DNA of 64,000 nt from Stackebrandtia nassauensis DSM 44728 (GTDB lineage Bacteria; Actinomycetota; Actinomycetes; Mycobacteriales; Micromonosporaceae), in assembly GCF_000024545.1 (NCBI RefSeq), contig NC_013947.1, forward strand, positions 434,001-498,000. Direction: 5' to 3'. A model generated the notes under the pieces. The model saw only the letters and a program-made list of their open reading frames with translations. It was not told the DNA's origin and did not search any database. This document shows, piece by piece, positions 18,628 through 47,185 of the stretch; position 1 is the first letter of the stretch; each line of letters begins with the position of its first letter. The translations under genes were made by a program, and so were the position numbers.

Positions 18628-18900
18628 CTTGGATTCCTTTCGGCCGGGTACTTGCTGGAGAGCCGGTGGCGGCCACCGGATACCACGTATCCGTCAGTGG
18701 AACAGGACGGTGCAACCCAAGAGCAGCCCTATTTCATGACATAACAGTATTTTTCGGGCACGTCTGCGCTGGCGATGGGGAAGCAATGTTTCAGTGAATA
18801 GTGCCGAGACGCGACAGGTCTTGCCGTCACCGATGTGCAAGTGCAGGTGAGCGCCGTCATGATGCGGCGGTCACCTCGGTCGCGTAAACTGGCGCGCGTA

Positions 18901-19003
18901 CTTCATCAAGAGCGGTCGAGGGAACGGCCCTGCGACACCGCGGCAACCACCCATCCGGGCAGGTGCCAAATCCGTCCGGCGTGACCGCGCCGGGAAGATG
19001 AGG
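18901..19003 (+). ncRNA. SAM-I (S-box) riboswitch aptamer
   Basis: The segment carries the SAM-I core in order: P1 5' strand CTTCATC (18901-18907) followed by AAGAG, the GAGGGA and GGCCC elements, CGGCAACC, GGTGCCAAATCC, a P4 hairpin (CCGGCG with CGCCGG) and the P1 3' strand GATGAGG (18997-19003), which pairs with the 5' strand over 7 bp. S-adenosylmethionine binding to this class normally shuts off methionine-related genes. Here the only downstream gene is thrC, 54 nt later, which is uncommon. SAM-IV shares part of this core, but the P4 position and the CAAGAG junction fit SAM-I better. Confidence 0.88.
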
Positions 19004-19010
19004 CTGCGGC

Positions 19011-31501: not shown

Positions 31502-31574
31502 GGGCCCTTAGCTCAATTGGTAGAGCTGCGGACTTTTAATCCGTAGGTTCCGGGTTCGAGCCCCGGGGGGCCCA
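31502..31574 (+). tRNA. tRNA-Lys (anticodon UUU)
   Basis: Full cloverleaf: acceptor GGGCCCT with GGGGCCC (one G-U pair), D-arm GCTC/GAGC, anticodon stem GCGGA/TCCGT with loop CTTTTAA (anticodon TTT), and T-arm CCGGG/CCCGG with loop TTCGAGC. No CCA is encoded. The 3' half is the attachment site of the adjacent integrase. Confidence 0.95.
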
Positions 31575-31575
31575 C
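31532..31575 (+). repeat. attL: 44-bp direct repeat inside tRNA-Lys
   Basis: The segment from the anticodon loop to one base past the tRNA end is repeated exactly at 47142-47185. It lies 19 bp from the integrase stop, the normal place for a tRNA attachment core. Confidence 0.93.
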
Positions 31576-31594
31576 TCGCTTTACCTGCGGATAT

Positions 31595-33058
31595 TCATCC
31601 GCGTCGTTTTTTATGTGGACGGTGGTTGCCGCGACGTTGCCGCCGCTTTCTCTTCGAGTTGCCGTGCCGTTTGTCCCGTTTAATCCCCGATGGGGTTTTG
31701 GCAATGTCGGAATCAACTGGGCCAGCAGCCACTGAACAGGGCTCGGCCTTGACTTTTGGCTCCCGTCGGCTGGCGGGCTGCCGCAGTCTACGGCCGGTGG
31801 CGCGAGCGGTATCGAGGATCAGCCGCGCGGTCGCAGCAGCCGCAGCATGATGCGTCTGCGGCAGCACCGAGGTATAGGTGTCGGCGGTCAGGACGATACT
31901 GCCGTGACCGAGTTGCTCCTGAACGGTTTTGAGATCGGCCCCCGCAGTATGCGCGAGGCTCGCCGCGCCATGCCGCAGATCATGCAGCCGAATCGGTGGC
32001 AGGTCATGTCGGTCGCAGAGAATCCGGAATCGGCTGGTGAGGTAATCGGGGTGGTGCGGTCGGCCGTCCGGCCGGGTGAACACGTACCCGGTCTCGTGCC
32101 AGGCATAGCCGGCGGCCCGCTGTTCACGTCGTTGGCGTTCGGCGTGTTCGCGCAACAGTGCGACGGTGTGCCGGTCCAGCGCCACGATCCGGCGGCTGGA
32201 TCGACTCTTGGGCGGGCACGTGTAGATCGCTCGGCCGAGCGTCGCCAGCTGCTGCGTGACCATCAGTTGTCGGCGATCCAGGTCGACATCCATCCAGCGC
32301 AGTCCGGCGGCTTCGCCACGACGCATGCCACGAAACGCGATCAGCGACCACAACACATACTCTCGATCGCCTTGAACACAATCGAGGAACCGCACCAGCT
32401 GAGCCGCGGTCCACACCGCCACCGCCGGCCGAATACCGGTGCGCCGCCACGCCTCCACTCGATCCGCGGTCCACACCACGGCATGCGGCCGGTGCGGGTT
32501 GGCCAACTCCACATGCCGGGCCGCATTGCGATCGATGAGGCCTTCCCGAATCGCGCCGTTGAGGGCCGCCCGCAACGTGGCACGGACCCGCTGCCAGGTA
32601 CCGGCCGCGCACGGCCTGCCATGCCGATTGGGGCGCGCCGCCAGCTCGGCGAACATCTCCGTCAGATGCTGACAGGTCAAGCCCGCGAGACTGACTTTGT
32701 CGAGGTAGGGCCCCACCAGGTCGATGTGCAGTTGATAGGAGCGTGCCGTGGTCGGCCGGATCGTTTGGCGATGGGCCAGCCAAAACCGCAACCAGCGCGT
32801 CACCGTCCACGTCGACCCGGTGGCCTGCGCTGCCGATTGCTCCACCACCGTGTCTCTGGCGGTGGTCGCTGCGGCACGGGAAGCAAAACCTCCTCGGCGG
32901 ATCCGATGATGACGTCCCCACAGGTCGACGACTGAGCAGTGGAAGTACCAGCTCCCGTGTCCTCGCTCGGACAGCCGCGGACACTCCGACAACAACCGCT
33001 TCCCCGTAGTGCTGTTGCGGCATCCGCACCGTTTGAAAATCACGCCCTTGCCTGCCAT
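31595..33058 (-). CDS. Tyrosine-type site-specific integrase
   Basis: The 487-residue recombinase inserts the island at tRNA-Lys. An N-terminal zinc-ribbon-like part (RCGCRNSTTGKRL with Cys26 and Cys41) precedes a SAM-like core-binding domain (about 84-185). The catalytic domain has Arg246 (FRGMRRGE), Lys in the beta-hairpin region near 284, HDLRHG (His359, Arg362), LGH (His385) and the nucleophile Tyr395 (TADTYTSVLP). A long basic tail (KRKRRQRRGNHRPHKKRRG) follows. The ATG at 33058 is preferred because AGKGVIFKRCGC is the usual beginning of this group. Its orientation places attL just downstream. Confidence 0.93.
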   Translation of the reverse strand: MAGKGVIFKRCGCRNSTTGKRLLSECPRLSERGHGSWYFHCSVVDLWGRHHRIRRGGFASRAAATTARDTVVEQSAAQATGSTWTVTRWLRFWLAHRQTIRPTTARSYQLHIDLVGPYLDKVSLAGLTCQHLTEMFAELAARPNRHGRPCAAGTWQRVRATLRAALNGAIREGLIDRNAARHVELANPHRPHAVVWTADRVEAWRRTGIRPAVAVWTAAQLVRFLDCVQGDREYVLWSLIAFRGMRRGEAAGLRWMDVDLDRRQLMVTQQLATLGRAIYTCPPKSRSSRRIVALDRHTVALLREHAERQRREQRAAGYAWHETGYVFTRPDGRPHHPDYLTSRFRILCDRHDLPPIRLHDLRHGAASLAHTAGADLKTVQEQLGHGSIVLTADTYTSVLPQTHHAAAAATARLILDTARATGRRLRQPASRREPKVKAEPCSVAAGPVDSDIAKTPSGIKRDKRHGNSKRKRRQRRGNHRPHKKRRG

Positions 33059-33089
33059 GACGAACCCCATTCTGAGTTTGACTATCTAC

Positions 33090-33362
33090 TCAGAGTTCCG
33101 CCGCCACAGCCGATGGGAAACCAAGTACACGACAATTCAGCCAGTCAAGAGCCAACTCGAACCAGCCAGCGCCCTGCGTGGCAATCACCGTCAGAGGCTG
33201 CACGGCGCCTTTCGTGCGAACCACTATCTGGCCCTTGAACCGGTTCGGCAAATTAGCGACAGGCGCTACGTCCGTCGGCTTGACGCCAACTGAGGTCATT
33301 GTGGTCTCAGCAATGTTTCCCTCCACGACAGGCTGAGGTCTCAATGAACGATGACGATTCAT
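33090..33362 (-). CDS. Small hypothetical protein upstream of integrase
   Basis: The 90-residue frame begins at an ATG with GAAGGT upstream. It contains a plausible folded part (PVANLPNRFKGQIVVRT, then LTVIATQGAGWFELALDWLN). It lies just upstream of the integrase on the same strand, where excisionases often sit, but shows no helix-turn-helix or MerR-like pattern. I do not recognise the family. The call is tentative. Confidence 0.4.
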   Translation of the reverse strand: MNRHRSLRPQPVVEGNIAETTMTSVGVKPTDVAPVANLPNRFKGQIVVRTKGAVQPLTVIATQGAGWFELALDWLNCRVLGFPSAVAAEL

Positions 33363-33746
33363 GCGTACCTTCACTGGTACCGAAATGCTGGTGTCAGAGA
33401 CGCCAAGATTTTACAAATACACGAAATGTCTAGCTTGCAAGACTTACACGAGTGTGGCGAACATACGCTGGGCGAATGCTAGGAAAGCAATTCAAGGTGC
33501 GAGTCAAGCCGTCCAGCTCACTTGACCATTTGACCAAGAGAGTGATTCTAGCTTTTGCCTTGCCCCGTATTGGAGGAGCTGTCGATGTTGTGGAGGGCGC
33601 GGTATTGGGTTCAGTCGGTAGTGGTGGCGCTCTCCGGGTCGGTTGAATTTCGAGGTTCAGCTCACGGTCGAGTGGCGGTCGTGCCCGGAACCGTTTGCGC
33701 ATCCCAGGTCGAGGAGTCGAGAGCCAAGAGCTGACAGAATAAACAC
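33363..33746. other. Intergenic region of the island, no clear gene
   Basis: This stretch has lower GC and mixed short frames without protein-like composition. It probably contains the promoters for the divergent units on either side. I see no repeats or RNA structure that I can support. Confidence 0.4.
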
Positions 33747-34502
33747 ATGATAGACGGTGAACTCCTTGCGATTGCCCAGCAGAAGATCGCTAATTTGCAC
33801 ACAGTGGATCCTGACCGTGTGCCCGTTGACGCTGTGATGGCTCTTTGGGAACTCCATTCAGGAGGCAGCCAACTTGGCAATGTGGAGTCGTGTTATGTGA
33901 TGAGCGAGTGTTTTGGCTTGCTGGGAGTGCAAACGGAGTTTGTGCCAGTGGCGTTGACTATCGCCCGCTGGCGCACAGAAGAGATAGTCGCGTGCTACGG
34001 AAAGATTTCTCCCACCGACCCTCGGGCAGAGTCGTGGCACTTCCTGCTTCGCGTCCGCAAGCTTTCGGCCCTTTGTGATCCCTCTTCTCCGGCCTTGCCT
34101 GAGCTAGCGGGTGTCGCAGGGGCGCGCCACGTAGCGCAGTTCCCTGTGGGCGACTGGGACCGCGTCGGCGGCATCGTGGTTGCGCGAGGCGAGACAATGC
34201 TGGTGTATCAGCCTGTTAACGCGGCGCCTCACGATGTGTGGCAGCAGTCGGCGACCACGATCGACCGCTTGCATTGTGCAAACCTTGGATCGTGTCTGGC
34301 AGCGGAAGTGCTGGATGCCTTGAGGTGGAACAGTCAGGTAGCTCGGCTCGACAGTCAACGGTGGGCGCGCGTGCGATCCATGATTGCGGCCATTGGTGAT
34401 GCACCGTTGCGAATTACCGATGGAATGCACCGAGCGTTTCAGATGCCCGGTGGCGAAATGATTACCGTTAAAGACCTTGCACGCTCTGACTACACGAGTT
34501 GA
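33747..34502 (+). CDS. Hypothetical protein, possible papain-fold pattern
   Basis: This 251-residue protein is on the opposite strand to the large NTPase gene and converges with it. The order Cys (NVESCYVMSECFGLLGVQTEFVPV) then His (ESWHFLLRV) resembles the core of transglutaminase-like or arylamine N-acetyltransferase folds, where an N-terminal Cys helix precedes strands with a His. A third catalytic residue is not obvious. No signal or membrane segment is seen. I do not assign a function. Being island-borne and lower in GC than chromosomal genes, it is likely accessory. Confidence 0.6.
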   Translation: MIDGELLAIAQQKIANLHTVDPDRVPVDAVMALWELHSGGSQLGNVESCYVMSECFGLLGVQTEFVPVALTIARWRTEEIVACYGKISPTDPRAESWHFLLRVRKLSALCDPSSPALPELAGVAGARHVAQFPVGDWDRVGGIVVARGETMLVYQPVNAAPHDVWQQSATTIDRLHCANLGSCLAAEVLDALRWNSQVARLDSQRWARVRSMIAAIGDAPLRITDGMHRAFQMPGGEMITVKDLARSDYTS

Positions 34503-34526
34503 GCATGTCCAGGGGACCGTCATACT

Positions 34527-37500
34527 TCAATCTAATGTGTTGTAAGTCTGTTTTGTGTGCCAAGCTCGCTGCAGAAGTGCCAAGCGTGTGTACTCCCACA
34601 GTAGACGCCACGAGGGTAGGTCTTCGTTGGTTGGGTGTGGTTCGTTTGCTTCAGGGCGTGGAACCCGTGAGAGCTTCTCGTCGCCTTCGAGTAGGCGGCC
34701 GTTAGCGAGATCGTTGATTGCCGCGAGCAGGAGAAACTTTTGGGTGTACTCGTCTGAGGTGCCGGATATTGGTTTGGCGTGCGGCCACGTAAGCAGGTCA
34801 TCGAGTAGTTTCGCCGCGTGGTCGGAGTCGAGGGTCTCACCAAGCAAGTAAGCAGCTGCGCAACTACAACCAACATTGTGGATCATCATGTTGACGGTGT
34901 ATGGCAGCATGGGAGTTGCCCCGATTCGCCGCCTGATCTTGTCGTGCTCGGACTTGGCGTCAGCCCACCGCTGAAGGCGGATCAGCACCTCGATGAGAAG
35001 CCGACGAGCTTCAAGTTCTTGTGGACCACCAAGAAAGTTGGCCTTGCCGATCAGGTATCGGCAAAGTCGCTCGGCATTCTCGTAGTCGCGACCGGTTTGA
35101 AGTTCCATTGTGATTTGGCGGAATGCGTCAAGAGCGTCTGAATGCTCAGTTGACGGCAGTCTGCTGATCAAGTCGGCGAACGCGCTGTTTAGAGTCGCGA
35201 TCTCTTCATTGTGTTCGATGAGTGATTGTCCTCGGGGGTTGTGGAGCGCGTTCCTCAGCGGTGTAAGGAGCTCCATGGCCCCGTCGGGTTTCTCGAGTGC
35301 CAAACGTTGGGCCGACATGAGGGAGTCTTGCAACCAGGGGATGACTTCGTCGATCGTGACGTCGGTGCGGGTTTCCTCGTCGATGAACAAAAGAGACAGT
35401 GAAATCTTGATCTGCATCGTGACAAGCTCGCTGTCGAAGTCGTCGTCCTTGACTGGTTCGATCTGGTCAAGTATCGACATCTCCAGACGCCATAGTTGTT
35501 CAGCCGCCAAGGTGTTACCGCGGTCGCGTTGCAAGATCGCGAAGTTGCCGAAGAGCAGCAGGATTTGAGGTGATGCCAGCTGCTGGGCGGCGATGTTTTC
35601 GACGAGCGCCTCCGCGTGAGTGGACATCAGGTATGACAGTTGAACGTGCCCAGCGTGCAGGCTTGAGGTCATCCAAATGTTCGTGAGTGTCGCCAAACGG
35701 TTTAGCAGGTCGAACATGCCTGAGTGTGTCTCGCGAAGGCGTCGGATGACGTCTTGCACGATGGTGTTGACCGCGATGGTTCGCGAACCATCAGCAACCA
35801 GTGAATCGAACTCGTGGGGTAGATCTTCGTCGAAGTCGACAAGAGAGAATCGACGAAGTTCTCGGACTGCCTCGAGAAGGTCAGCGGATTCCGGGCCGAC
35901 AAACATGGGGCCGGCGGTCCTGAAGTCGGGGTTGCGCAGCTCATCGTCGTGGGCAAACAAGGCTCCCGCAGCAAGGTGTATGGGAATTTGGCGTGAGGCG
36001 GTATACGCCGCCGCGGTCATCAACGCCAAGGGGGCTAGCTTTTGAAGAGTATGTGGCTCCTCCTTCGTAAGAGTCGCCACGTGATCGAGACACATGTCGA
36101 TCGCTGCGACGAGCGTGCGTGGGTACCCGACAGGAATGGCCATGTCGTCCGCTAGTGCGCGCTGTTTGAGCCTGTCGAGGTAGTGGTGGGCTTGGTGGAT
36201 GGGGATTCCGCAGCCGTGCATATATCCGGTCGCCAGTTCAATGGCCAGAGGCCAGCGGCCCATCGCGTTGACGATCCGTTCGAGAAGCCCGATGTGACTG
36301 CTGTACTCGGCGTCCGACATGTCCAGGCGCAGTCGCAGGAGTGTGACGGCTTCGTCGCGGCTCATTTGCTCTACCGGAATCGTTGCGGCCTTGCCGAAGC
36401 GGGTGGCAGCATCCAGCGCCGTGATGAGTACGTCGCCGCGGCCGACAGCGGGAAGCCATGCACCCAAGTCACGCGCCACCGTGACATTGTCGAAGACTAT
36501 GAGCCATCGTCCGTTATAGCGGCTTAGCTCGGTGTGGACGGCATCGCGTAGTTCATCCGGAGTTGCTTCCATGATCGAGGCCCGAGTGATGCCGCGAATG
36601 TGCGCTAGGACTTGGCGCAACGATGCTGTAAGGGTGGAGGTGGATTCCGCGTCCACCCAACAAATCAGGTCGTACAAGTCTGCGCGGTTAGCGACATAGG
36701 CAGCGGCCTGACTGGATTTGCCGATGCCCGACAATCCCACCAATGCCGCAGTGCGCACCCCGGCATCGATAGACGGAGCGAACACGTCGTTGAGCCTCGT
36801 GATGATCTCGGGACGAGGAACATCTGGAATGGGCGGAACCCGGCCAACAACGACTCCCCAGTCACGAACCGCAAGTGACTGCGCCAGCACGTGCCCGGGG
36901 ACAAGCAGACGCTCGCGAAACTCTTGACGTGTCAAGCATGCCGCGCCCTCATCAGCAGCACGTCTCAGGACATCAGAAATGAGAAAGCCAAGAAGCAGGC
37001 CCGCGGATTGCTCGCCGAGCCCCTCACGGGCACTAACGCGAAACTGGCGAAGCCGGGAGGCCAGATGGTAACGGATCTCTATGTCGTCGCGGTCATCTAC
37101 AATGACCCGTGCCCTGCAAAATCGTTCAATGATCGACGGCAGCATTTGGCTGACCTGGCTAGCACGGCTTGGTGCCCCAGCCAAGGTCGCCAAGAGGGAT
37201 CGACGCAGCTCATCGAAATCGTCGATGGCCTCTAGAGCGGTCACCAAGTCCTTCATGCCGGGACCAGCTTGCGCGTTAGTTATAAGTTGGTATTCCTTCG
37301 CATTGACTGCCACAACTAGGTCAAGTAGAATGCCAAATGCTTCGGAGGCACTCATTGTGCTACCGGGTTGACGTGACTTCACCTGGACCGCGACCATACG
37401 TTCGCCACCGTCGCCCGTTAGATCGAAGTCAACGGTGTTAATCCCATCGGCGCCGGAGCCACCTTCCACACGCAGCGCCGCTATCGACTCATCGTCGATC

Positions 37501-37580
37501 CTTTCCAGCAGAGCCTCGAGAGTACGCAAATACTGGTACTGGAAGCCTCGGGCAGCAACCCGCCCACCATCAACAGCCAT
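34527..37580 (-). CDS. Nuclease-like / STAND NTPase / helical-repeat protein (defence candidate)
   Basis: This is a 1017-residue protein. Residues 1-130 resemble the DUF4297/Cap4-type PD-(D/E)XK nuclease: the opening GGRVAARGFQYQYLRTLEALL, VEG (Glu39), Asp51/Asp53 and VQVKS (Gln66, Lys68). Residues about 255-480 are an NB-ARC-like STAND ATPase with Walker A GLSGIGKSS (282-290), Walker B WLIVFDN and a GRWPLAIELA motif like the NB-ARC GLPLAL site. The C-terminal 500 residues are helical repeats of TPR type, which would act as sensor. Effector-STAND-sensor is the layout of Avs and related antiphage proteins. The ATG at 37580 is chosen because AGGGTGAT precedes it. Invader-triggered DNA cleavage is inference. 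Confidence 0.8.
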   Translation of the reverse strand: MAVDGGRVAARGFQYQYLRTLEALLERIDDESIAALRVEGGSGADGINTVDFDLTGDGGERMVAVQVKSRQPGSTMSASEAFGILLDLVVAVNAKEYQLITNAQAGPGMKDLVTALEAIDDFDELRRSLLATLAGAPSRASQVSQMLPSIIERFCRARVIVDDRDDIEIRYHLASRLRQFRVSAREGLGEQSAGLLLGFLISDVLRRAADEGAACLTRQEFRERLLVPGHVLAQSLAVRDWGVVVGRVPPIPDVPRPEIITRLNDVFAPSIDAGVRTAALVGLSGIGKSSQAAAYVANRADLYDLICWVDAESTSTLTASLRQVLAHIRGITRASIMEATPDELRDAVHTELSRYNGRWLIVFDNVTVARDLGAWLPAVGRGDVLITALDAATRFGKAATIPVEQMSRDEAVTLLRLRLDMSDAEYSSHIGLLERIVNAMGRWPLAIELATGYMHGCGIPIHQAHHYLDRLKQRALADDMAIPVGYPRTLVAAIDMCLDHVATLTKEEPHTLQKLAPLALMTAAAYTASRQIPIHLAAGALFAHDDELRNPDFRTAGPMFVGPESADLLEAVRELRRFSLVDFDEDLPHEFDSLVADGSRTIAVNTIVQDVIRRLRETHSGMFDLLNRLATLTNIWMTSSLHAGHVQLSYLMSTHAEALVENIAAQQLASPQILLLFGNFAILQRDRGNTLAAEQLWRLEMSILDQIEPVKDDDFDSELVTMQIKISLSLLFIDEETRTDVTIDEVIPWLQDSLMSAQRLALEKPDGAMELLTPLRNALHNPRGQSLIEHNEEIATLNSAFADLISRLPSTEHSDALDAFRQITMELQTGRDYENAERLCRYLIGKANFLGGPQELEARRLLIEVLIRLQRWADAKSEHDKIRRRIGATPMLPYTVNMMIHNVGCSCAAAYLLGETLDSDHAAKLLDDLLTWPHAKPISGTSDEYTQKFLLLAAINDLANGRLLEGDEKLSRVPRPEANEPHPTNEDLPSWRLLWEYTRLALLQRAWHTKQTYNTLD

Positions 37581-37675
37581 AACATCACCCTGTTGCAATC
37601 CGTCGTGTTTTGTTTGAACGCGAGGCGCCAGCCTGCACCAGGCTTACATGAGGATGAGACGGTGGTGCATTCTGG

Positions 37676-38017
37676 ATGGTGGTTGAGGTTTTTCATGATC
37701 ACAGCGCACTTTCAAGAGATCGTCTGAAGGCGGAGTTTTTGAATGACGGCGTGGTCGAATGGGATATACGGCTTATTAAGTGCAAGAGTATGCCTTTTGG
37801 GTGGTTGGCGTCTTCGACGTTGATGAGGCGAGGTGATGTCGGGGGCGAGGTGGAGGTGAACGCAGGCGACGATCCGGATACCGCTGAGATTGGCGTACGC
37901 ATCGTTGTGGCCTCTTCGGTTAGCTCATGGAAATCTATGTCAACCGTGTACGCCCGTCAACAGGTTGGTTCTTCGGCGAACCGAAAGGGAGAGGCCCTAT
38001 TCGAAGCATCAGCGTGA
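37676..38017 (+). CDS. Possible small hypothetical protein
   Basis: The 113-residue frame fills much of the 430-bp gap between the two large NTPase genes and overlaps the 3' end of the NACHT gene antisense by 9 bp. Its composition is protein-like in the middle (GEVEVNAGDDPDTAEIGVRIVVAS), but codon preference is weak and no ribosome-binding site is clear. I do not recognise it. The region may instead be only promoter DNA for the minus-strand gene. Confidence 0.3.
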   Translation: MVVEVFHDHSALSRDRLKAEFLNDGVVEWDIRLIKCKSMPFGWLASSTLMRRGDVGGEVEVNAGDDPDTAEIGVRIVVASSVSSWKSMSTVYARQQVGSSANRKGEALFEASA

Positions 38018-41000
38018 GATGAGGTCCAGTGCGGCGAGACAAAGAGGTCCTTCATGGTTGGTGAAGGGGTTGTGCACGATGGTGTTAGGTGAAGCGGACG
38101 CCAATAGATGGCTGATTGCTGTCGCTTCGTGCTGTGCGAGAGCCCCAGCCCGCTTCAAGGCGATGGCAAAGAGGTACATGCGTTGTAGCGGTTGCAGATC
38201 TGGATCTGCGGCGATGATCGGATCGTCGGCGTTGGCGAGTATCGGACTGGTTTCGTGGATGGCCATCGGCTCAGCGAGCGCGGATTTGAAGGCTTCGACT
38301 GCCTCAAGGTCTATTTGCAGGCGGCGTGTCAGTGGCCGTGTCAGGATTGGTAGGAATAGGTCGGATATGCCCATGTGGATGCGAGCGTGGGCGCGGAGCA
38401 AGATGGCGGGCAAATCCTGTGGTGAAGCTACGCTGAGCGCGAGGGTCAGTACCTCCGACAAATCGCGGTACCTCCGTGTCGAAGGTTCGGTTTGGAACCA
38501 CGATTCAAGCTCGTGGAAGACAGCTTTGGAAATGTTGTCTCCCGGAAACATATGTGTATATATGGCTAGCTTGTTGTTGCTATAGAAGGGGCGTGGACTC
38601 GCGCCTTCAGTAAATGCGGCTTTGAAGTCCTCATCGGAGACATTCCAGCTTTCTCTGTCTAGCAACGAGTCTACGATTGGGTCTTGTCGTCGATGCGCAT
38701 TTTCGCCAAGTTTGCTAACTAGGGCGCGGAGTACCTCCACGTTGCCCTGGTTTTCTTCCTTCGCCCACAGCAAGAAGTTTTGATCGTGGCGTAGTTCAAC
38801 ATCAGCGCCGGCGTCACCTCGGATCATCTCCGCGATCGAAGGGTATCTGGAGGCGACGGTCACGAGCGCTGACATGACTGCTCGGCGTCGTTGGCGCTTA
38901 GTTAGACGTTGCCGATCAGACGTACTGATAAGTCGATCGAAGATGTCTTTGCCGAAATGATCGCACAGTTCTACCCAGTTCTCTGCCACAAGATCCACCA
39001 GGATCTGGTCCTTTTCATCACGATAGGGGAGGCGAAGACTCACCCCTGGTATCTGACCCGAATGACCGATGGATTCCTGGATGTTGTCGAAGAGCGTGAG
39101 GTCTCCAAGCATGAGCATTCCTATCCATGCAAGTTGTCGATGTTCTTCGAGTTGCGGTCCATAGGCGCAAAGGTCGTGCTTAATTTCGAGGCGCAGCCAT
39201 TCCATTTCAGAGGTCGGTGTATCGGCACCAGTTGTGGTTTCACTGTGCTGCTGGTGGTTCTTGATGGCTTGAACGAGGCCGATAAAGGCAATGCGCCGAA
39301 CTTCGGTGTCGGGCTCGGTTCGCCACTCCGACAGGACGTTGATGTGCTCTTCTGCAGCTAGCATGCTGCGTGCTAGTTCGAAGGCCAATACTTCGCGCAA
39401 CTCCGGTTCCAGATGTGTTAGGAGGTCGAGTCCCTTGTTGAAGATTCGTTGGGAGGGTTCGTCGGTTCTTTTGCAGAACGCCTGAAGTATTGCGACTGGA
39501 ATTGTGTCGGATATACCTGATGTAATGGGTCTTTCATCGTATAGGAGGTTGTCGGCGACTTCCAGAACTGTTGCCTGTTCTGGCCAGGCGGTTATTACGG
39601 AGGGGACGTGCCACATCAAGGGGTGAGGTTTCACCGCAGTGCACAGCGTCGCTAGCTCGGTTGCGTCATAGCTTGCTAGCAAGTCGCGTGCGGTTTGCCC
39701 TTTGACGCCTACTTTTCGGGCTTCGTCTTTAAACTGTTTCCATGCGTCGGCCACCGCCAGTGCCACAACAACGCGCTTCTCCGAACTCGTAGTTTGGTCT
39801 TGCTGGCGAAGCAGGGACACTTGAAGACCGAACCCTTCTTTCGGTCCAAGCACGTCGACGGCAATGCTTGCCAATGGCGCGGCGCGTTCGTACTCGCCGC
39901 GAAGACGTGCGATCAGAGCCGTGCTGACCTGCTCGTCATCTAGGTACTGTTCAACTAGTTGTCGCGCTGCAGAGTACGGCCGCCAAGAATTCAGCCCTTG
40001 CAGTAGTACCGCCTTGGCATCTTCCGGCGGCAAGGCGGTGGCGAGTCTCGCGACACTGTATGCGCCGGGTTCTCCAATTTTCGTTTCTAGGTACGAGCGA
40101 AGTATTGAGGTAAATTCGGGATCGTCGATCCACTGTTGGGGAATTATGTTGGGGTCATATAGGATAAGACCCCGTTCCTCCGGCTGGGCGAGTTCCGCTA
40201 CGGTCCATTGTTTGAATCGGCTATCGTCGGCGAACTCGTTACAGGCAAGCGTCCACGCAATACGGCGGTCGCCGCCGTTTCGTCCGTTTGTGGTCAGGGT
40301 TTCTAGCGCGAAATCGGCGACTTGGACGTCTCCGGTGGCAGCGATGTCAACAAGGTCATCTGCGGGCCACGGCCCGCGGGCCCAATTCTCGTAGTGCAGG
40401 AGGGACAGCAGCCAGGCGCGTTCTTCTGGGCGAAACAGTGCAGCTTCACCGTTCGTGGTGGATTTTTGCAGTAGATGCAATGCGACCAGGCGCAGCGGCA
40501 CTGAAGGCTGGCTCCGGGCCCAGTCAATCAAGCCAGAAGTTTCGGTAGCCTCTGCCCAACCGGTGCCGAGAGCCAGGATGACAGCGGCCTGGGTTGCCGA
40601 GGATGGTCCGGTTTGGGCAAGAGATACCAGCCGGTCAATCAAGTGTGTCTGACCTTTGAAGCGCTGCGCGATGGCCAAGGCTGCGTTGACCTTCACACGG
40701 TCTTCCGGATGCCGCAGGCCCCATACCAGGTGTTTGAGCGCGCACTCGTCAGCAATGGGCAGTTCGCGCAGTGCCCACATGGTTGCTGCAGGGTTAGGGC
40801 GAGGAGCAGTAAGCCACCGTTTCATGGCCGGAAGCAGGTTCTTTCGGGCGAGTTGATTCGTAAGCATGCCGACTAGAGCCGCAATGAGGTTTGCCCGATG
40901 ATGTAGCGATGGGTGGGTTTCGACCCGTTCTACCAGGTTGTTGATGTATCGGGTTTGGGATTTCGGCGTGAGTTTGACACCGGCGGCGAGGGCCTCGGCG

Positions 41001-43198
41001 AGAAGCTCGTAACCTTCGATATCTCCCCACATCCGCTCTCCGGCGTCAAGCGCCGCAGCGAGAAGCAACTCCGTTCCATGCGAACTGAGTTGAGCGCTCA
41101 ACAGTGCGAGGAGTACATCGCGCCATGCCGGATCACCGACAAACTGTTGTACGGCCTCGGATTGTGCGTGAGGAGGTAGCGTCACGAGATACTGACCAGC
41201 CATGTGGTCAAGCAGAGTCCGGTGTAGGAAATTGTACGTGCCAGCACCATATGAGACGATCAAACCGAACTCATCTTCGGCGGTGGTAAGGACGTCGTTG
41301 GCCAACCTGCGAGCTTCCGCTAGGTCGTAGCCGAGAACATCTTCGTCTGTCATTGACTCTACGATCAGTTTGCGCATCTCCGACTTCGTGACAGTCCCGG
41401 AAGGATCTTTGAGGCGAAGTCGATAGGCAACCGCAGAGAACAATGTGGTGGCCTCACTCGCTGGCAGGGGCCCTCCGTCTGCATGTGAAGCACGCCGTCG
41501 CATTTGAGGGTGTTTTCCGACCAAAAGCTCAACGAGGTGGTCGTAGATTCTGAACCGTTGCTGCGGCAAAGGCTCGCCCTGCCACGTCGTTGCCAGCAAC
41601 GACAAGAAGAGTGGGGTGCGGGACAAGTCGTTAAGTTCGGCCGTGGCAGAAAGCTGAGCTAGGAACGGTTCAACGCCGACCCACGGCAGTGGATTGGATG
41701 ATTTGCTTTTCTCCAATGTGTCTGGTATCAGTAGCTGACTGGCGATGGTGAGGCGCTGTTGGTCGTTCAGAAGCGTGATCTCTGCTTTACCCCATGGCAA
41801 CCGCCAGTTGAGCCTGTGGAGTGCGTATGGACGCGTGGAGAGGATTGCCGAGGCTTTGGTCTGGCCGAGAAACGTCTCCAGTTTTCCGAGTGCCTGTTCG
41901 GCTGCGCCGATATTGCTCCACTCGTCCACACCATCCACGAGCAACAATAGGCGATCGTCGCGAAGGGCATGCTTCACCAATGGCCAGAGGTGATCGGCGC
42001 TGTGGGCCTTCAGCCAGGCTTCCATTGCTGATACCACCGAGTTCTCAGTTGATGCTTCAAGGTGGCGACACAAGTATCCAAAAGGCAACCAGATTGGCAA
42101 ATCGGGGGCATGCTCGCGTTGCAGCGGGATTGATTGCGGTTGAGGTGAAAGAAGGTCAGTTGCGACGAATCGCAGGAGGCTTGACTTACCGGCTCCGGGG
42201 CGGCCAACGAGCAACCTGTATTTTCCGTCGGTCAACCATTCATCAGCTTCGACGGTGTCGACTGGGTGTGTCGGGTTGCCAATTGCGCTTCGTAGCAAGT
42301 GCCGTGCTGACCTGAAGGATTGACGCTCTATGCCGGGTTGAGATTCAACATATGCCTCCCCATCTGCCAAACCTTGGTCAGGTCGTAGCCTCTCGTCTCG
42401 TGCCTGAGATCCGTCTTGCTCAACTACAGATCGTTCGCGATAGGGGGCAACACCTAGGACAATGAACCGCTTGGCGTATTCAGTTTGGTCAGCTGAAGGG
42501 CCACTTCCTTGCGAGTAAAAGACGGCCTGATAGAGGCTCCTCAACTCTGACCGCAGAGTTCGCCTGTCCTGGAGCGACAAATGCTCATCGAGAGATCGGG
42601 CCGCCTCCATGCCGCAAAATCGCTCAACCCATGGCTTACCGAAAAAGTCATAGACAATGCGAGGATGATCCTTCAACAACGCAGAAGTTTCCTGTACCCC
42701 CCACGGAACGAACGTTATCCCCATCCTCGCCAGTCGGCTTGTTTGCTTGCGAATCACCTCGTCGAGTTTCGTGTGCTGCAAGTCGAACGATGTGGCGTAA
42801 TAGAAGACGGAAGTCTTACTGCACCACTCTCCAGCGACGAAGTCGTCAATGGCCTTCTCAACCTTGGCGGCGGTGAGTTCCTCCACTCGCCGTGATTGCA
42901 GAGTGATGTAGTCGCGAGCGTTTGTTTCACTATCCGTCAAGTCCAACGGAAGTCGGGCGTAAGCATCAATACCGGCTTGAGACTGACCAGGAACCCCGAA
43001 CAGCTTGGCAAATTGAACAGGTTGGACTGTGTGCAACAACCGAAGAAACAGGCGCTCCGCATCAGACCAATCGAGCTCTCTAACTGGCAACACTTGCGAC
43101 TTGGTGTCAACTGGTGGCGCAGGTACTGGGCCGGTAGGGGCTGCCCACAACAACGCTTCGACGCGATCTTTGCTGTTGGCAATTCCAACATTGGACAT
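38009..43198 (-). CDS. REase-like / NACHT NTPase / repeat protein (bNACHT-type defence candidate)
   Basis: This is a 1729-residue protein. Residues about 45-190 resemble an Mrr-like restriction-endonuclease domain (FGVPGQSQAGIDAY with Asp78, then DYITLQSRR at 97-104). The canonical Lys of QxK is replaced by Arg, so activity is uncertain. The NACHT domain (about 325-500) has Walker A VGRPGAGKSS (331-340), the NACHT-type Walker B LLLLVDGVDEW (417-427) and downstream STRPY. The remaining 1000 residues are helical, HEAT-like repeats (LKHLVWGLRHPEDRVKVNAALAIA). bNACHT proteins with N-terminal effectors are known antiphage factors, and this protein follows that plan. GAAGGG precedes the ATG. Confidence 0.82.
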   Translation of the reverse strand: MSNVGIANSKDRVEALLWAAPTGPVPAPPVDTKSQVLPVRELDWSDAERLFLRLLHTVQPVQFAKLFGVPGQSQAGIDAYARLPLDLTDSETNARDYITLQSRRVEELTAAKVEKAIDDFVAGEWCSKTSVFYYATSFDLQHTKLDEVIRKQTSRLARMGITFVPWGVQETSALLKDHPRIVYDFFGKPWVERFCGMEAARSLDEHLSLQDRRTLRSELRSLYQAVFYSQGSGPSADQTEYAKRFIVLGVAPYRERSVVEQDGSQARDERLRPDQGLADGEAYVESQPGIERQSFRSARHLLRSAIGNPTHPVDTVEADEWLTDGKYRLLVGRPGAGKSSLLRFVATDLLSPQPQSIPLQREHAPDLPIWLPFGYLCRHLEASTENSVVSAMEAWLKAHSADHLWPLVKHALRDDRLLLLVDGVDEWSNIGAAEQALGKLETFLGQTKASAILSTRPYALHRLNWRLPWGKAEITLLNDQQRLTIASQLLIPDTLEKSKSSNPLPWVGVEPFLAQLSATAELNDLSRTPLFLSLLATTWQGEPLPQQRFRIYDHLVELLVGKHPQMRRRASHADGGPLPASEATTLFSAVAYRLRLKDPSGTVTKSEMRKLIVESMTDEDVLGYDLAEARRLANDVLTTAEDEFGLIVSYGAGTYNFLHRTLLDHMAGQYLVTLPPHAQSEAVQQFVGDPAWRDVLLALLSAQLSSHGTELLLAAALDAGERMWGDIEGYELLAEALAAGVKLTPKSQTRYINNLVERVETHPSLHHRANLIAALVGMLTNQLARKNLLPAMKRWLTAPRPNPAATMWALRELPIADECALKHLVWGLRHPEDRVKVNAALAIAQRFKGQTHLIDRLVSLAQTGPSSATQAAVILALGTGWAEATETSGLIDWARSQPSVPLRLVALHLLQKSTTNGEAALFRPEERAWLLSLLHYENWARGPWPADDLVDIAATGDVQVADFALETLTTNGRNGGDRRIAWTLACNEFADDSRFKQWTVAELAQPEERGLILYDPNIIPQQWIDDPEFTSILRSYLETKIGEPGAYSVARLATALPPEDAKAVLLQGLNSWRPYSAARQLVEQYLDDEQVSTALIARLRGEYERAAPLASIAVDVLGPKEGFGLQVSLLRQQDQTTSSEKRVVVALAVADAWKQFKDEARKVGVKGQTARDLLASYDATELATLCTAVKPHPLMWHVPSVITAWPEQATVLEVADNLLYDERPITSGISDTIPVAILQAFCKRTDEPSQRIFNKGLDLLTHLEPELREVLAFELARSMLAAEEHINVLSEWRTEPDTEVRRIAFIGLVQAIKNHQQHSETTTGADTPTSEMEWLRLEIKHDLCAYGPQLEEHRQLAWIGMLMLGDLTLFDNIQESIGHSGQIPGVSLRLPYRDEKDQILVDLVAENWVELCDHFGKDIFDRLISTSDRQRLTKRQRRRAVMSALVTVASRYPSIAEMIRGDAGADVELRHDQNFLLWAKEENQGNVEVLRALVSKLGENAHRRQDPIVDSLLDRESWNVSDEDFKAAFTEGASPRPFYSNNKLAIYTHMFPGDNISKAVFHELESWFQTEPSTRRYRDLSEVLTLALSVASPQDLPAILLRAHARIHMGISDLFLPILTRPLTRRLQIDLEAVEAFKSALAEPMAIHETSPILANADDPIIAADPDLQPLQRMYLFAIALKRAGALAQHEATAISHLLASASPNTIVHNPFTNHEGPLCLAALDLISR

Positions 43199-43394
43199 CG
43201 TTGTCGCCCTTCACCATGACCTGCGGAACCTTCGGTGCCACACAAAGGCTAAACCCTGGCGTGTAAGCGCCTGAACACATGCGTCGCCAGCCGTCGCCAC
43301 CACCCCTGCCGGATTCAGGCCCGAGCTAACTGTACTCAACGGTGCCGTCCACCAACCAGGCCAAAGGGCGGCGTACACGGCCCTCTCGACTTGT

Positions 43395-43408
43395 TTTACC
43401 TAGGTAAA
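43395..43408. promoter_or_regulatory. 14-bp perfect palindrome, probable PadR operator
   Basis: TTTACCTAGGTAAA is fully self-complementary and ends 13 bp before the PadR-like gene's start codon. Autoregulation by the PadR-like protein is the simplest reading. Confidence 0.6.
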
Positions 43409-43421
43409 GTAAGATGTAGTT

Positions 43422-43754
43422 ATGTCGTGGCCGTTCCGAATTACAGCGCCTCTGCTAGACGTGCTTGAAGTGCTCGTCGAATCAAGGGAGGAGCTGCATG
43501 GTTGGGCGATCATGAAGGCCACCAAGAGATCTGGGCCTTCGATTTACCAGGTTCTTGAACGTCTGCGCAAGGCAGAGTGGGTTACTTGTCGCTGGGAGGA
43601 TCGTCCACCAGACGAAAGCCGGCCTCGGCGCCGCTACTACCGACTGACGGGGACCGGAGCGGCTTCCGCGCGAGCGGTCCTGGCCGAGCGGCGCCCTGAT
43701 CGATCTGCCAGTTACGCAGCCGACTCGACAATCCCCCTGGGACATCAGATCTAA
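43422..43754 (+). CDS. PadR-family transcriptional regulator
   Basis: This 110-residue winged-helix protein matches the PadR plan: ALL-type start helix (ITAPLLDVLEVLVE), LHGWAIMKATKRSGPSIYQVLERLRKA as HTH and recognition helix, the wing WVTCRWED and RRYYRLTGTGAA. The usual C-terminal dimer helix is short. PadR proteins repress operons in response to small molecules or stress. A palindrome lies just upstream (43395-43408). A membrane protein gene follows after 12 bp and is likely co-transcribed, which is a common PadR arrangement. Confidence 0.85.
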   Translation: MSWPFRITAPLLDVLEVLVESREELHGWAIMKATKRSGPSIYQVLERLRKAEWVTCRWEDRPPDESRPRRRYYRLTGTGAASARAVLAERRPDRSASYAADSTIPLGHQI

Positions 43755-43766
43755 CGGGATAGCTGA

Positions 43767-44510
43767 ATGCGGCCCACCATCTTGAGTTCGATTCTTTCTC
43801 TTATCGTTGGGGGACTAGTGTTTCCGGACCTTCGTGACATCGCGGAATGGGCGGCTCGCCGTCTGGTCAAATGGGCAGCGCCGAAATGGACTGACGACGA
43901 GACCGAAGCTGAGGCACTGTATGAGGATTGGCAAGCGGTCATCGAAGACCGGCCGGGAGCCATTTTGAAACTGGTCACTGCCACGGGGTTCTGCGTTTCG
44001 GCTGCCACGCGTAGCTATGGCCGAGTAGTCAAAAGTGACTATCGGGAAGCATTCAAGGACCAGCCAAGCTTCGCAACAGGATTGCTTCGCTTGTGGAAGA
44101 TCCGCGGCGACCGTATGCAGCGCGAGGTGACGATCGTGATAATTAAGCGCGCGCTGGGGAACCAGCTGACTTACCGCCAACGCTTCACTAACGCCGTTCT
44201 CGTGCTTGGGTTCCTTGGTTCGTTCTTTGGATGGATTTGGTTCTGCATCGGTCACAATCGAGTCGACAACCAAACTGTCTCCAATGGTACGACGATTGTT
44301 GCGGCGACATATCTTGTGTTGTGGTGGCTGCTTCGTCGTCGGCGCCGGAAGAAGTTCTCGCAGGTTTCAGACCCGGCTGTGGCTCTTACCTGCTCGTCAG
44401 AAGCCGTATTCACAATGAAAGACCCACGCTCTGGCCGCGAGGTCATGGTCACCATTCGTGAGATCCCCGAAACCACGCCAGGAGGGCTTTCCGCGGGCAA
44501 CCCAGGGTAG
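43767..44510 (+). CDS. Membrane protein co-transcribed with PadR regulator
   Basis: This 247-residue protein has an N-terminal hydrophobic segment (about 5-20), a charged helical cytosolic part and two further membrane segments (FTNAVLVLGFLGSFFGWIWFC; TTIVAATYLVLWWLL) followed by a basic stretch RRRRRKK and a C-terminal soluble tail. PadR-coupled membrane proteins of this type are frequent in actinomycetes and uncharacterised. It ends at 44510, with a terminator-like hairpin shared with the convergent nuclease-like gene. Confidence 0.68.
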   Translation: MRPTILSSILSLIVGGLVFPDLRDIAEWAARRLVKWAAPKWTDDETEAEALYEDWQAVIEDRPGAILKLVTATGFCVSAATRSYGRVVKSDYREAFKDQPSFATGLLRLWKIRGDRMQREVTIVIIKRALGNQLTYRQRFTNAVLVLGFLGSFFGWIWFCIGHNRVDNQTVSNGTTIVAATYLVLWWLLRRRRRKKFSQVSDPAVALTCSSEAVFTMKDPRSGREVMVTIREIPETTPGGLSAGNPG

Positions 44511-44543
44511 GAGGGACGACGTACCAGGAGGTTGGATGTCGGT

Positions 44544-44587
44544 CCGCGGGGCTGTAGATGTGCGGATGGCGATCGGCAGCCCCGCGG
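44544..44587. terminator. Hairpin between convergent genes
   Basis: CCGCGGGGCTG (44544-44554) pairs perfectly with CAGCCCCGCGG (44577-44587) over a 22-nt loop. It lies between the stops of the membrane protein gene and the convergent nuclease-like gene, so it may act in both directions. Confidence 0.55.
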
Positions 44588-44594
44588 TACTGCT

Positions 44595-45449
44595 TTAGGT
44601 AGCCGGCTTGTCGGTTTGCTGGAGGATTTCGAGGTAACGGTTGCGGAAGTAGTGGATGAGGCGGGAATCGGTGGTGCCGAGGATGAGGGTTAGCGGCCAG
44701 ATGATCAGTTTGGCGTGGCGGGCAAGGTATATGCCGATGTGGGTGATGCTGTTTGCGGGTGCGAGGAACGCGTAGTGGAGTGTTTGACTGATCCAGTCAC
44801 GTGCGTGGTGTGCCGGGTGGCGACTGGTCTTGATGTCGATGAGGGTTGAGCCGATGATGAGGTCGGCGATGGCATAGTCCTCGGTTAGGACTGGGGCGAC
44901 TTGGATCTGTCCAGGGATAGCTTGAAACTGCTGACGCCCATGGTGGTGATAGGCATCCGAGAGCTTCGCTAGGGCGTCGGGGTAACGCTCAACGGCAGTG
45001 GAGTTCCACCTGCTGTCGGATCGGATACTGACTGCGGGCCGATACTGGAGTTGCTGCTGTATCCATTGTCGATGTTTTGCAAGGTCCCAGCAATAGGTTA
45101 GCCGCATATCCTCCGGTGAGACGTGTATGTCATGTGATGACGCTGCAGTCAGCGGTTGCGGGTTGTTGCGGGGACGTCTTGTTGACGGTGCCGTGGTGGT
45201 GGCTCTATCGAAGGTGTGGGCTCTGATCAGCGCCTCATAGGGTGTGGCGGGGGCAAGATCGATGCCGATGGTGAATTCGACTGCCCATCCCAAGCGGGTC
45301 GATTCGATAACGGAATCGGCGACGTGGAACGTGGGGTTGGCTGTGGCGGCGTGGATCTGGCGTACGGCGATGTCAGCGCCTGGCGCGAGATCATCGAAGC
45401 ATTCACGCAATCGAGGGTCGGTACGCGGGCGCCGGAATGAGCCGGTCAT
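44595..45449 (-). CDS. PD-(D/E)XK-like nuclease family protein
   Basis: The 284-residue protein's C-terminal half carries a compact PD-(D/E)XK motif: Asp196 in AIADLIIG and Asp205-x-Lys207 in TLIDIKTS. A helix with Trp/Gln (ARDWISQTLHYAFLA) follows, matching the motif IV position of RecB-like nucleases. The N-terminal half is unrecognised. AGAGGAGA precedes the ATG at 45449. Proteins of this form often appear singly in defence islands and phage-derived regions. The target is unknown. Confidence 0.65.
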   Translation of the reverse strand: MTGSFRRPRTDPRLRECFDDLAPGADIAVRQIHAATANPTFHVADSVIESTRLGWAVEFTIGIDLAPATPYEALIRAHTFDRATTTAPSTRRPRNNPQPLTAASSHDIHVSPEDMRLTYCWDLAKHRQWIQQQLQYRPAVSIRSDSRWNSTAVERYPDALAKLSDAYHHHGRQQFQAIPGQIQVAPVLTEDYAIADLIIGSTLIDIKTSRHPAHHARDWISQTLHYAFLAPANSITHIGIYLARHAKLIIWPLTLILGTTDSRLIHYFRNRYLEILQQTDKPAT

Positions 45450-45938
45450 GATGGTTCTCCTCTTAAAGCTTGGTCCATACGTCTAACGTGCCGGCTCTCT
45501 GCAGACCGGTGGTGTCACCAGTACTGCGGAATACCAGCGGCGCGACCTTCATGGCAGCACCCACACGGTTACCACGAGATCAACCCACAATGGATTGCCA
45601 TGATCGTGTGCAAGCTCCATGAACGATCACGCAAGACCGCAACGAAAGATGAGGTGATGAGAGATGAGAATGCGTTGATTCAAAATACGCCGAATAAGCT
45701 ATTCAAAGTTAAGAGGAGAGAGTTCGAAGACGGTAAGATGCGAATGTCTTATCTAAGAATCGTTGATGTATCTGTGCGCTTATCTATTCTTGCTTCTATA
45801 TGTTTGACTTAGGCGTAGTGTTATATGTTGCGGCGGCCCCTAGAATACCAGATCAGCGGGGTTCGTGGGCTGTCCGTTGCCTCGCTGATCTAAGCCAGCA
45901 CCGTTGGTGCCCACGGGAGTTTGCGTCCACTGAGGCTT
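45450..45938. other. AT-richer intergenic stretch, no supported gene
   Basis: Bases from about 45600 to 45850 are the most AT-rich in the window, with runs such as TATCTATTCTTGCTTCTATA. A 70-codon frame at 45600-45812 has no family look and is not called. Promoters for the flanking island genes or a scar of older mobile DNA are likely. Confidence 0.45.
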
Positions 45939-46616
45939 CTATCGTGATCCGATCTTGCGGCGGAGTTTCCAGCTGCGGCCGTTGCTGACGTCGAAGCGTT
46001 CACTCCAGATGTTTTCTCCGTTGAGAAGGAACGTCAGGCCGCTACTCCAACGCAAGACGAGTTCTCCGAGGTTGAGTTGCCCAGCAAGGCGCTTAGCGAT
46101 GTGGACGTCGCGGCGCCGATTGGGGTCTGCATGTGGGTTAGGCGCCGGGGCGGTGTCGAGCCATGCCGCAGCGCCAGGGCACGTGAAGATCAACCGGTGG
46201 CCGTAGTTGTCCCAATCGACGTGTGTGTAGTCAACGGCTTGTGCAAGCCACTTGGTGTACGCGTTTTCCCCAGCTTGCAGAGGTGGTTGCTTGAACTCGA
46301 CGCCAAAAGCAACGTCCGGATCGGCCCACACTTGAGCATTTCGTGGACGCAGCATCGCATCCACACGCAGATGCTTGCCGCAGCAATGCGTGCCGCGAAC
46401 TTCTCTGTCGATGACAAACCACGGCTCCAGCCTGGCGAGAACCCTGTCCGCCAGAGCCTTCTCCGAAGCAAAGCCCCTCAAAGGAAGCTCAGCATCGTAT
46501 GGCTGGCTGCGGGGAGGATCGGCAAACGGATTGGCTTCCCAGTCCACCAATGGTACGAACGGACCGGCTTGTGCACCGCGGATACGTTGGCGCTCGGACT
46601 CAGGGATGTCATACAT
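45939..46616 (-). CDS. PD-(D/E)XK-like protein at island end
   Basis: This 225-residue protein has a motif order like PD-(D/E)XK nucleases: Glu72 in REVRGTH, Asp86 in LRVDAMLRP, Glu107-x-Lys109 in FGVEFKQPP and a helix YTKWLAQAVDYTHVDW at the motif IV position. No DNA-binding domain is visible, and it may work with another protein. The island boundary lies about 525 bp beyond its start. A nuclease of the same superfamily also occurs in three other island proteins, which is notable. Confidence 0.62.
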   Translation of the reverse strand: MYDIPESERQRIRGAQAGPFVPLVDWEANPFADPPRSQPYDAELPLRGFASEKALADRVLARLEPWFVIDREVRGTHCCGKHLRVDAMLRPRNAQVWADPDVAFGVEFKQPPLQAGENAYTKWLAQAVDYTHVDWDNYGHRLIFTCPGAAAWLDTAPAPNPHADPNRRRDVHIAKRLAGQLNLGELVLRWSSGLTFLLNGENIWSERFDVSNGRSWKLRRKIGSR

Positions 46617-47141
46617 CGCTCAATGTTGCCGCCCCACGGCGAAGACGCCAAGCGACAGATTCACAGCAGTTCAATAGCGTGCATCCCACGAACAAGGTCG
46701 TAGCGAACTTTCTCGGCATGGCGGCATCTACGCAATGCTCGGCCTTTGCTCATCCTTCACCGGACACATCCACAAAACGGCGGTCGGCCACCGAGGAGCC
46801 ACCGAACAGGAGACTGCCACACACCGCAAGCACCGGCCAATCCAATCTTACAAAAACCATAGTGGATAGATACAGGTCTGCACGAGCGGTAACGCCGCCA
46901 AAATGCCGACATGCCGCGGGGTTCCTCGCTGCATATCGGCATGGCTTTCCTCAGGGCCCGGAGGGGCAATTACACAGGACTTCCACGCTGACAGCGGTTG
47001 CTCGGTAGTTGCTCAGTGGTTCTGAGAGGGTCTGGCATTTGGTGGTACTGGATGGTATCGCCGGGCTTCGAAGTTGGCGGTTGTCGGGATAGAACGGTAC
47101 ACAGTGCTACTGTCTAACATCAATTGTCCTTTGAGGAAGGT
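46617..47141. other. Right end of the island, no gene recognised
   Basis: No frame here has a convincing start, length or composition. Frames on both strands look like shadows or noise. It may contain promoter DNA and the arm-type sites the integrase needs at attR. Confidence 0.45.
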
Positions 47142-47185
47142 ACTTTTAATCCGTAGGTTCCGGGTTCGAGCCCCGGGGGGCCCAC
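47142..47185 (+). repeat. attR: 44-bp repeat of the tRNA-Lys 3' half
   Basis: Exact copy of 31532-31575. It has no acceptor 5' strand, D-arm or anticodon 5' stem, so it is only an attachment-site duplicate and not a tRNA gene. Confidence 0.93.

Follow-up and report, generated by a model that had tools for sequence, protein, structure and literature searches.

A tRNA-Lys genomic island of Stackebrandtia nassauensis with two NLR-like STAND NTPases as cargo

The available part of a study of Frankia actinomycete integrative conjugative elements (AICEs) describes elements that carry a tyrosine integrase, insert into the 3′ ends of tRNA genes (tRNA-Lys included), are bounded by direct repeats, and can stand in tandem, with related integrases using different tRNAs (PMC3218068). 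Stackebrandtia is not named in the text of that paper. The 64,000-nt stretch analyzed here (the window; positions 434,001-498,000 of the chromosome of Stackebrandtia nassauensis DSM 44728, a single contig of 6,841,557 bases) holds a 15.6-kb island at a tRNA-Lys gene that resembles these elements in integrase, insertion geometry, and repeats. Unlike the Frankia AICEs, the island has no recognized replication or transfer module, and its cargo includes NLR-like STAND proteins.

General context on STAND conflict systems is given in the available part of PMC7159879. The nearest described proteins are the clade 6 bacterial NLR-related bNACHT25 and bNACHT32, which, as far as the source is available, are ordered as a PD-(D/E)XK effector, a NACHT domain, and a C-terminal sensor, with nuclease residue D48 required for protection (PMC12169576). 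The NACHT protein of the island shares this order, and its NACHT domain has both a P-loop and a Walker B motif. In contrast to bNACHT25 and bNACHT32, its C-terminus is HEAT-like, and while the PD-(D/E)XK aspartate is present, the lysine of motif III is replaced by arginine. The same two-domain plan is found in the Mrr-NACHT fusions noted in 2007 (available part of PMC1913061). Some relatives of the window protein match Mrr_cat and Mrr_cat_2, whereas the window protein, with R103, matches neither.

Avs (AVAST) proteins are STAND proteins with an N-terminal restriction-enzyme-like domain. Avs4 is among the structural matches of the N-terminal model of the NACHT protein, but none of the PADLOC profiles for Avs1-5 matches it (E up to 1). 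The second STAND protein of the island, of the NB-ARC type, has an N-terminus that matches LmuA of Lamassu, both of which we take to be akin to Cap4-like nucleases. Unlike in Lamassu, the LmuA-like domain is fused to NB-ARC and TPR-like repeats, and no SMC-like LmuB is matched among the eight proteins scanned, such that Lamassu as a whole system was rejected. In the open-access literature, no paper was found that deals with this island or the arginine variant. Islands integrated at tRNA genes are already a known kind; the new detail is the motif-III arginine of the NACHT clade.

Repeats, integrase, and composition of the island

The interpretation of the 15.6-kb interior as a tRNA-Lys genomic island is well supported by its repeats, an integrase adjoining the tRNA gene, foreign composition, reuse of the same tRNA in relatives, and the geometry of integrase and tRNA. 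The target, tRNA-Lys (anticodon TTT), lies at 31502-31575 on the plus strand (ARAGORN; Rfam RF00005 at 31502-31574). Its last 44 nt (31532-31575, +) form the att-like core at the tRNA end and recur exactly at 47142-47185 (+), the far att-like core, at an offset of 15,610 nt; ARAGORN finds no tRNA gene at the distal copy. A search of the 6.84-Mb genome with the tRNA region returned six matches. Two of these are the locus and its distal copy (100%), and the other four reach 77-79% identity, so that the exact repeat has two copies only. The expected chance count of exact 44-mer pairs in a genome of the same size and guanine-plus-cytosine (GC) content is about 2e-11. The tyrosine integrase of 491 amino acids (aa) is encoded at 31595-33070 on the minus strand (PF00589, E 2.3e-17; phrog_1 integrase, E 7.4e-57), and its gene ends 20 nt from tRNA-Lys with the stop codon facing the tRNA 3′ end.

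The GC content is 0.577 across 31576-47141 and 0.569 across 33071-47141, as opposed to 0.682 (19.5-31.5 kb) and 0.702 (49-64 kb) in the flanks. Eight flanking genes have mean log codon probabilities of -0.73 to -1.01 under native codon use and the seven cargo genes -1.24 to -1.51, with the integrase intermediate at -1.15. The hydrolase gene past the distal repeat has native-like codons (-0.90). A preliminary description of this DNA, made from its letters, had claimed an exact 44-bp repeat of the tRNA-Lys 3′ half beside a tyrosine integrase and again 15.6 kb away, as well as an interior of lower GC and different codon use. The repeat and the integrase (PF00589) are borne out, and so is the composition, with 0.577 against 0.68-0.70 in the flanks and seven cargo genes unlike their eight neighbors.

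The same tRNA gene is occupied in relatives. Among 61 genomes searched (the own genome and 60 relatives), a same-strand downstream copy of the tRNA-Lys 3′ half is found in at least seven: G000 (own), G004, G015, G029, G042, G049, and G052. These copies are 40-48 nt long and lie 6 to 38 kb downstream, and ARAGORN predicts no tRNA gene at them; in G042 the intact tRNA lies outside the stretch fetched. Two of the relatives, G004 and G029, have defense-like genes at the site that are not those of the window island. G004, of the same genus, has two 3′-half copies. Its first segment holds an integrase-like gene at the tRNA (recognized by eye, with no tblastn match to the window integrase), a DnaB/DUF3987 protein, and a Schlafen-type protein, while the second holds a GmrSD_N protein whose PADLOC matches are NsnA (7.9e-41) and PD-T4-2_A. 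The tRNA-Lys gene of G029 is adjoined by a degenerate integrase, related to that of the window (54%) and interrupted by four stop codons. Adjacent genes of this 6.1-kb island (L022:7075-13243) encode a DarT-like protein, an ADP-ribosylglycohydrolase, and a UvrD-like helicase, which perhaps constitute one system.

Matches of some degree to the integrase occur in 294 of 300 genomes of the family. The 30 loci studied further are a non-random set, the window's own and the 29 best-scoring ones fetched, and were scored for tRNA-Arg and tRNA-Lys only. A 3′ half of either tRNA faces the integrase 3′ end at 20 of the 30 and lies on the 5′ side at 2. Among the 20 facing cores, 17 match tRNA-Arg best, eight of them being intact tRNA-Arg(ACG) genes. 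Tandem pairs of family integrases with repeated Arg cores are found in G529 and G389, whereas G404 has a related integrase (61%) and Lys-type cores 11.4 kb apart; a 707-aa protein of the G404 island has no match in Pfam or PADLOC. Because facing cores of both types occur in one integrase family, its target specificity appears to have changed between tRNA-Arg and tRNA-Lys.

The NACHT protein and its R-type nuclease-like domain

The 1729-aa NLR-like protein (38009-43198, -) comprises, from profiles, alignment, and a model, an Mrr-like PD-(D/E)XK N-terminus (D78, Q101, and R103), a NACHT domain, and a HEAT-like C-terminus. The NACHT match is above the cutoff (PF05729, E 1.4e-6) and the HEAT_2 match below it (E 7.1e-5). 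P-loop residues G332, G337, K338, and S339 and Walker B residues D422, D425, and E426 are invariant in a 7-sequence alignment. Other actinobacteria have full-length relatives (56-67%), and more distant ones are spread over many phyla, with an ANME archaeon among them. On a Deinococcus aetherius plasmid (L056:4911-9778), the Mrr-like and NACHT halves are encoded by two adjacent genes, whose annotations read "restriction endonuclease" and "NACHT", respectively.

The family was sampled as the best 80 matches, which is not the complete family; 23 of 79 loci without an N-terminal match were left out, L128 has no residue at the site, and G027 has the L114 sequence. D78 is present in 61 of 61 distinct N-terminal sequences and Q101 in all 60 that have the column. 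The motif-III position, next but one after Q101 (R103 in the window protein), is lysine in 43 and arginine in 17, the window included, of the 60 scored, with one row lacking data. All 12 sampled members of the actinobacterial clade, the window included, have the R103-type arginine, and they form one group with a support of 100. A 57-row tree built without the motif requires five K/R state changes, four of them forced by supported branches; it comes from a quick search with SH-aLRT support only, has several long branches, and excludes L128, L114, L162, L168, and the Deinococcus split gene. On this tree, the K/R state would have changed at least four times in the family, with the direction not settled.

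The R-type nuclease-like domain is under purifying selection. Its ratio of nonsynonymous to synonymous substitution rates (dN/dS; Nei-Gojobori, own script) is 0.08-0.15 in seven R-clade pairs, with dS saturated (2.1) for the window versus L111. The C-terminal region has a higher ratio than the domain in 7 of 7 pairs, which does not always hold for the middle region or for NACHT. For four K-type pairs, at small distances, the ratio is 0.14-0.52.

The Mrr_cat profile matches 14 and Mrr_cat_2 matches 7 of 32 family members (E up to 0.1). The model of residues 1-240 (pLDDT 79.6) shows a helix, three strands, a helix, and a strand, and its top Foldseek matches, restriction enzymes first, are EcoT38I, PspGI, Avs4, Mus81, XPF, and Can2. 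Avs4 (8dgf) ranks sixth, with a probability of 0.97 and E 0.024. A PDB sequence search gave one match for the full protein at E 0.75, and a search of PDB with its N-terminal profile returned nothing. On the basis of the model, the case for a PD-(D/E)XK-like fold of the N-terminus is weak to moderate.

The lysine of PD-(D/E)XK enzymes orients the water molecule for its attack; some families have it relocated to motif IV, where it is often an arginine (available part of PMC1913061). No conserved replacement lysine is found within residues 36-229 of the R clade, where only K65, before motif II, is kept in at least 11 of 12 rows. R95 and R150 are each present in 12 of 12 R-clade rows, as compared to 7 and 1 of 43 K-type rows, respectively; thus, an arginine migrated to the R95 or R150 position as a substitute is possible. 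We tentatively propose that the actinobacterial Mrr-NACHT clade has fixed an arginine in place of the motif-III lysine while retaining D78, Q101, and purifying selection, such that its N-terminal domain may act as an arginine-dependent nuclease or else as a DNA-binding or assembly module that no longer cuts DNA, in which case these NLRs would work without degrading DNA.

Other cargo and surroundings

The NACHT gene is accompanied by a K-type counterpart, such that the island carries an R-type STAND protein (NACHT) and a K-type STAND protein (NB-ARC) side by side. The latter, of 1023 aa, is encoded at 34527-37598 (-; TTG start as listed), and profiles divide it into an LmuA-like N-terminus (residues 16-230; PADLOC LmuA, E 4.9e-9), an NB-ARC domain (PF00931, E 2e-6, above cutoff), and a TPR-like C-terminus (TPR_19, E 0.0058, below cutoff). 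It also matches NCBIfam FxSxx_TPR at E 9.6e-44, below the cutoff of that family. Its N-terminal nuclease domain has D and QVK motifs, and the D and Q-x-K are common to closer relatives. A PDB sequence search returned nothing for this protein, and of 23 stretches matched by degenerate patterns in genome contigs, none was confirmed as a relative. About 46 kb before the window, the same genome has a gene with a similar N-terminus and a QIK motif (G000:C1:387306-387650, L069).

Between the integrase and the NB-ARC gene, a 251-aa protein (33747-34502, +) belongs to no significant family in Pfam (best match CATASP, E 0.34), PADLOC, NCBIfam, or PHROGs and has no plasmid match; judged by eye, its C...H...D residues hint at a papain/transglutaminase-like fold. 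A 110-aa PadR-type regulator (43422-43754, +; PF03551, E 4.4e-11) is encoded divergently from the NACHT protein, and its gene is adjoined by that of a 247-aa putative membrane protein (43767-44510, +) with hydrophobic stretches by eye and no Pfam match above cutoff. Two further PD-(D/E)XK-like proteins follow. The 284-aa protein (44595-45449, -) has the motif ADLIIGSTLIDIK, common to its distant relatives, and its C-terminal part resembles part of two Streptomyces-plasmid proteins annotated as UvrD helicases. The 225-aa protein (45939-46616, -) has the motif RVDAM...GVEFK, common to its relatives, one of which (44% identical) is found on a plasmid of Streptomyces chartreusis (21.6 kb), where its gene comes immediately after that of an integrase. 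A single-sequence model of the 225-aa protein reached a pLDDT of 36.7 and was set aside, and scans of viral contigs for both proteins found none. Across the order (298 genomes, own included), matches occur in 2 genomes for the 225-aa protein, in 7 for the 284-aa protein, in 3 for the 251-aa protein (two marginal, E above 6e-4), and in 6 for the NB-ARC N-terminus.

No replication, transfer, packaging, or excisionase family is matched in the eight larger open reading frames (ORFs) of the island (Pfam, NCBIfam, and PHROGs) or in its seven small ORFs (Pfam). Beside the integrase, only PadR among the other seven larger proteins has a PHROGs match below 0.04 (phrog_2440 transcriptional regulator, 5.1e-5). 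Two candidates were rejected on these scans: an intact AICE, for which no replication initiator or FtsK/TraB-type transfer gene was found in the scanned ORFs, and a prophage, for which the eight ORFs match no phage structural, packaging, or satellite replication family in PHROGs. The preliminary description had listed two very large STAND-type NTPases, four proteins with nuclease-like motifs, and no transfer or replication genes, and had called the element non-self-transmissible. Both NTPases are confirmed, with PF00931 and PF05729 above cutoff; the scans agree with the stated lack of transfer and replication genes, and, there being no replication, transfer, or phage structural family in the ORFs scanned, also with non-self-transmissibility as sequenced. 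All four motifs are present as well, but that of the NACHT protein is without the canonical lysine.

Outside the island, two overlapping and related Ser/Thr protein kinase-like genes lie upstream of the tRNA (28414-31477), the second of which has 42 matches in the genome. A second zone of low GC (0.601) extends over 15.5-19.5 kb, and its three ORFs in 15607-18627 have no Pfam match with an E of 0.01 or less. An S-adenosylmethionine (SAM) riboswitch (RF00162, 86.9 bits; 18900-19004, +) lies just 5′ of a gene for a pyridoxal phosphate-dependent enzyme (PF00291; 19058-20314, +). By eye this enzyme resembles threonine synthase, which might mean SAM control of threonine, rather than methionine, synthesis.

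Proposed mechanism, alternative explanations, and implications

The locus is probably a mobile 15.6-kb tRNA-Lys island whose main cargo consists of two NLR-like defense STAND NTPases. The tyrosine integrase would recombine the 3′ half of tRNA-Lys(TTT) with an identical attP core of 44 nt, restoring the tRNA gene at one end and leaving the 3′-half copy at the other. Since no transfer or replication gene is recognized, the island would depend for its movement on a helper or on passive uptake of DNA. By family precedent, each STAND protein would most likely sense an infection cue through its C-terminal TPR-like or HEAT-like repeats and oligomerize through NB-ARC or NACHT, after which activation of the N-terminal effector would result in abortive defense. 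The effector of the NB-ARC protein would be its predicted nuclease-type domain with D and QVK motifs. That of the NACHT protein would be its Mrr-like domain, with uncertain activity because the motif-III lysine is an arginine. The defense role of the cargo, which the preliminary description had also proposed, is suggested by domain architecture and by the genes in other islands at the same tRNA.

Several observations weigh against this proposal. No empty site was found: in three of the four other genomes of the genus, the surroundings of tRNA-Lys have no flank in common with the window, and G003, the remaining one, has no clear tRNA-Lys match. The window ORFs have only generic matches at the tRNA-Lys neighborhoods of G001, G002, and G004 (same genus) and of G050, namely ABC-type proteins at 37-39% and one 34% match over 85 residues. 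The downstream hydrolase and the upstream kinase have many paralogues, and the genus matches listed for them lie away from tRNA-Lys. Directly after the distal copy stands CA, which makes up a CCA end of the kind seen in G001. This CA is missing after the proximal copy, and also in G002, G004, and G050, such that the hint is weak. No excisionase is recognized among the island ORFs scanned, and thus, of the "complete tRNA-Lys island" of the preliminary description, the island stands on repeats, integrase, and composition, while its completeness is less sure. At 10 of the 30 integrase loci there is no facing core of tRNA-Arg or tRNA-Lys, the two tRNAs scored, and the cargo of the G529 island is by eye metabolic- and transport-like, not defense-like. 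The structural match of the nuclease-like domain is weak (best E 1.0e-3, TM 0.36), with many non-nucleases from rank 12, and R103 speaks against a standard nuclease, D78 being kept and the motif-III lysine replaced.

GC is lowish for about 1.8 kb beyond the distal repeat (0.605 at 47-48 kb and 0.627 at 48-49 kb), which, together with the low-GC zone at 15.5-19.5 kb, means that the boundary is not set by GC alone. The low GC past the distal repeat would also fit an interior accreted over several events, with the distal repeat an old duplication, as would the finding that no other cargo gene occurs at the 18 NACHT loci checked (tblastn, E 1e-4), which leaves the cargo set without a known common source. 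However, the exact 44-nt identity and the parallel occupied tRNA-Lys sites in relatives make such piecemeal assembly quite improbable. A better candidate, if still a rather doubtful one, is an AICE remnant in which integrase and cargo outlasted the replication and transfer genes. Its precedents are the Frankia AICEs in tRNA-Lys (available part of PMC3218068) and the G004 segment at the same tRNA-Lys, which has the DnaB/DUF3987 protein and, by eye, an FtsK/transfer-like ATPase, a short helix-turn-helix-like gene, and the integrase-like gene without a tblastn match to that of the window. On the other hand, no replication or transfer relic is found among the window-island ORFs scanned, and gene content around integrase relatives is known from two or three loci only.

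A decayed prophage or phage satellite with defense cargo is suggested by the likeness of the integrase to phage integrases (the phrog_1 match and, along 64% of its length, a 42% match to Streptomyces phage TurkishDelight), but with no structural or packaging family among the eight ORFs in PHROGs, and only PadR otherwise below 0.04, such an origin is very improbable. The STAND proteins might instead serve development or signaling. FxSxx_TPR proteins, assigned by NCBI to a different system, are similar to the NB-ARC/TPR part, and PADLOC gives no complete system in the island (E up to 1), itself a point against a defense cargo. Nevertheless, both STAND proteins have nuclease-type N-termini, and DNase-NACHT proteins of similar general plan (bNACHT25 and bNACHT32) protect E. 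coli from phage (available part of PMC12169576), which renders a non-defense role unlikely.

The analysis identifies tRNA-Lys as a recurrent landing site of islands in Stackebrandtia and its relatives, some of which carry defense-like genes, and it connects tRNA-Arg as well as tRNA-Lys with a single integrase family. Because the position of the catalytic lysine has changed without decay of the domain, the R-type NACHT clade constitutes a direct test of whether a bacterial NLR effector needs nuclease activity.

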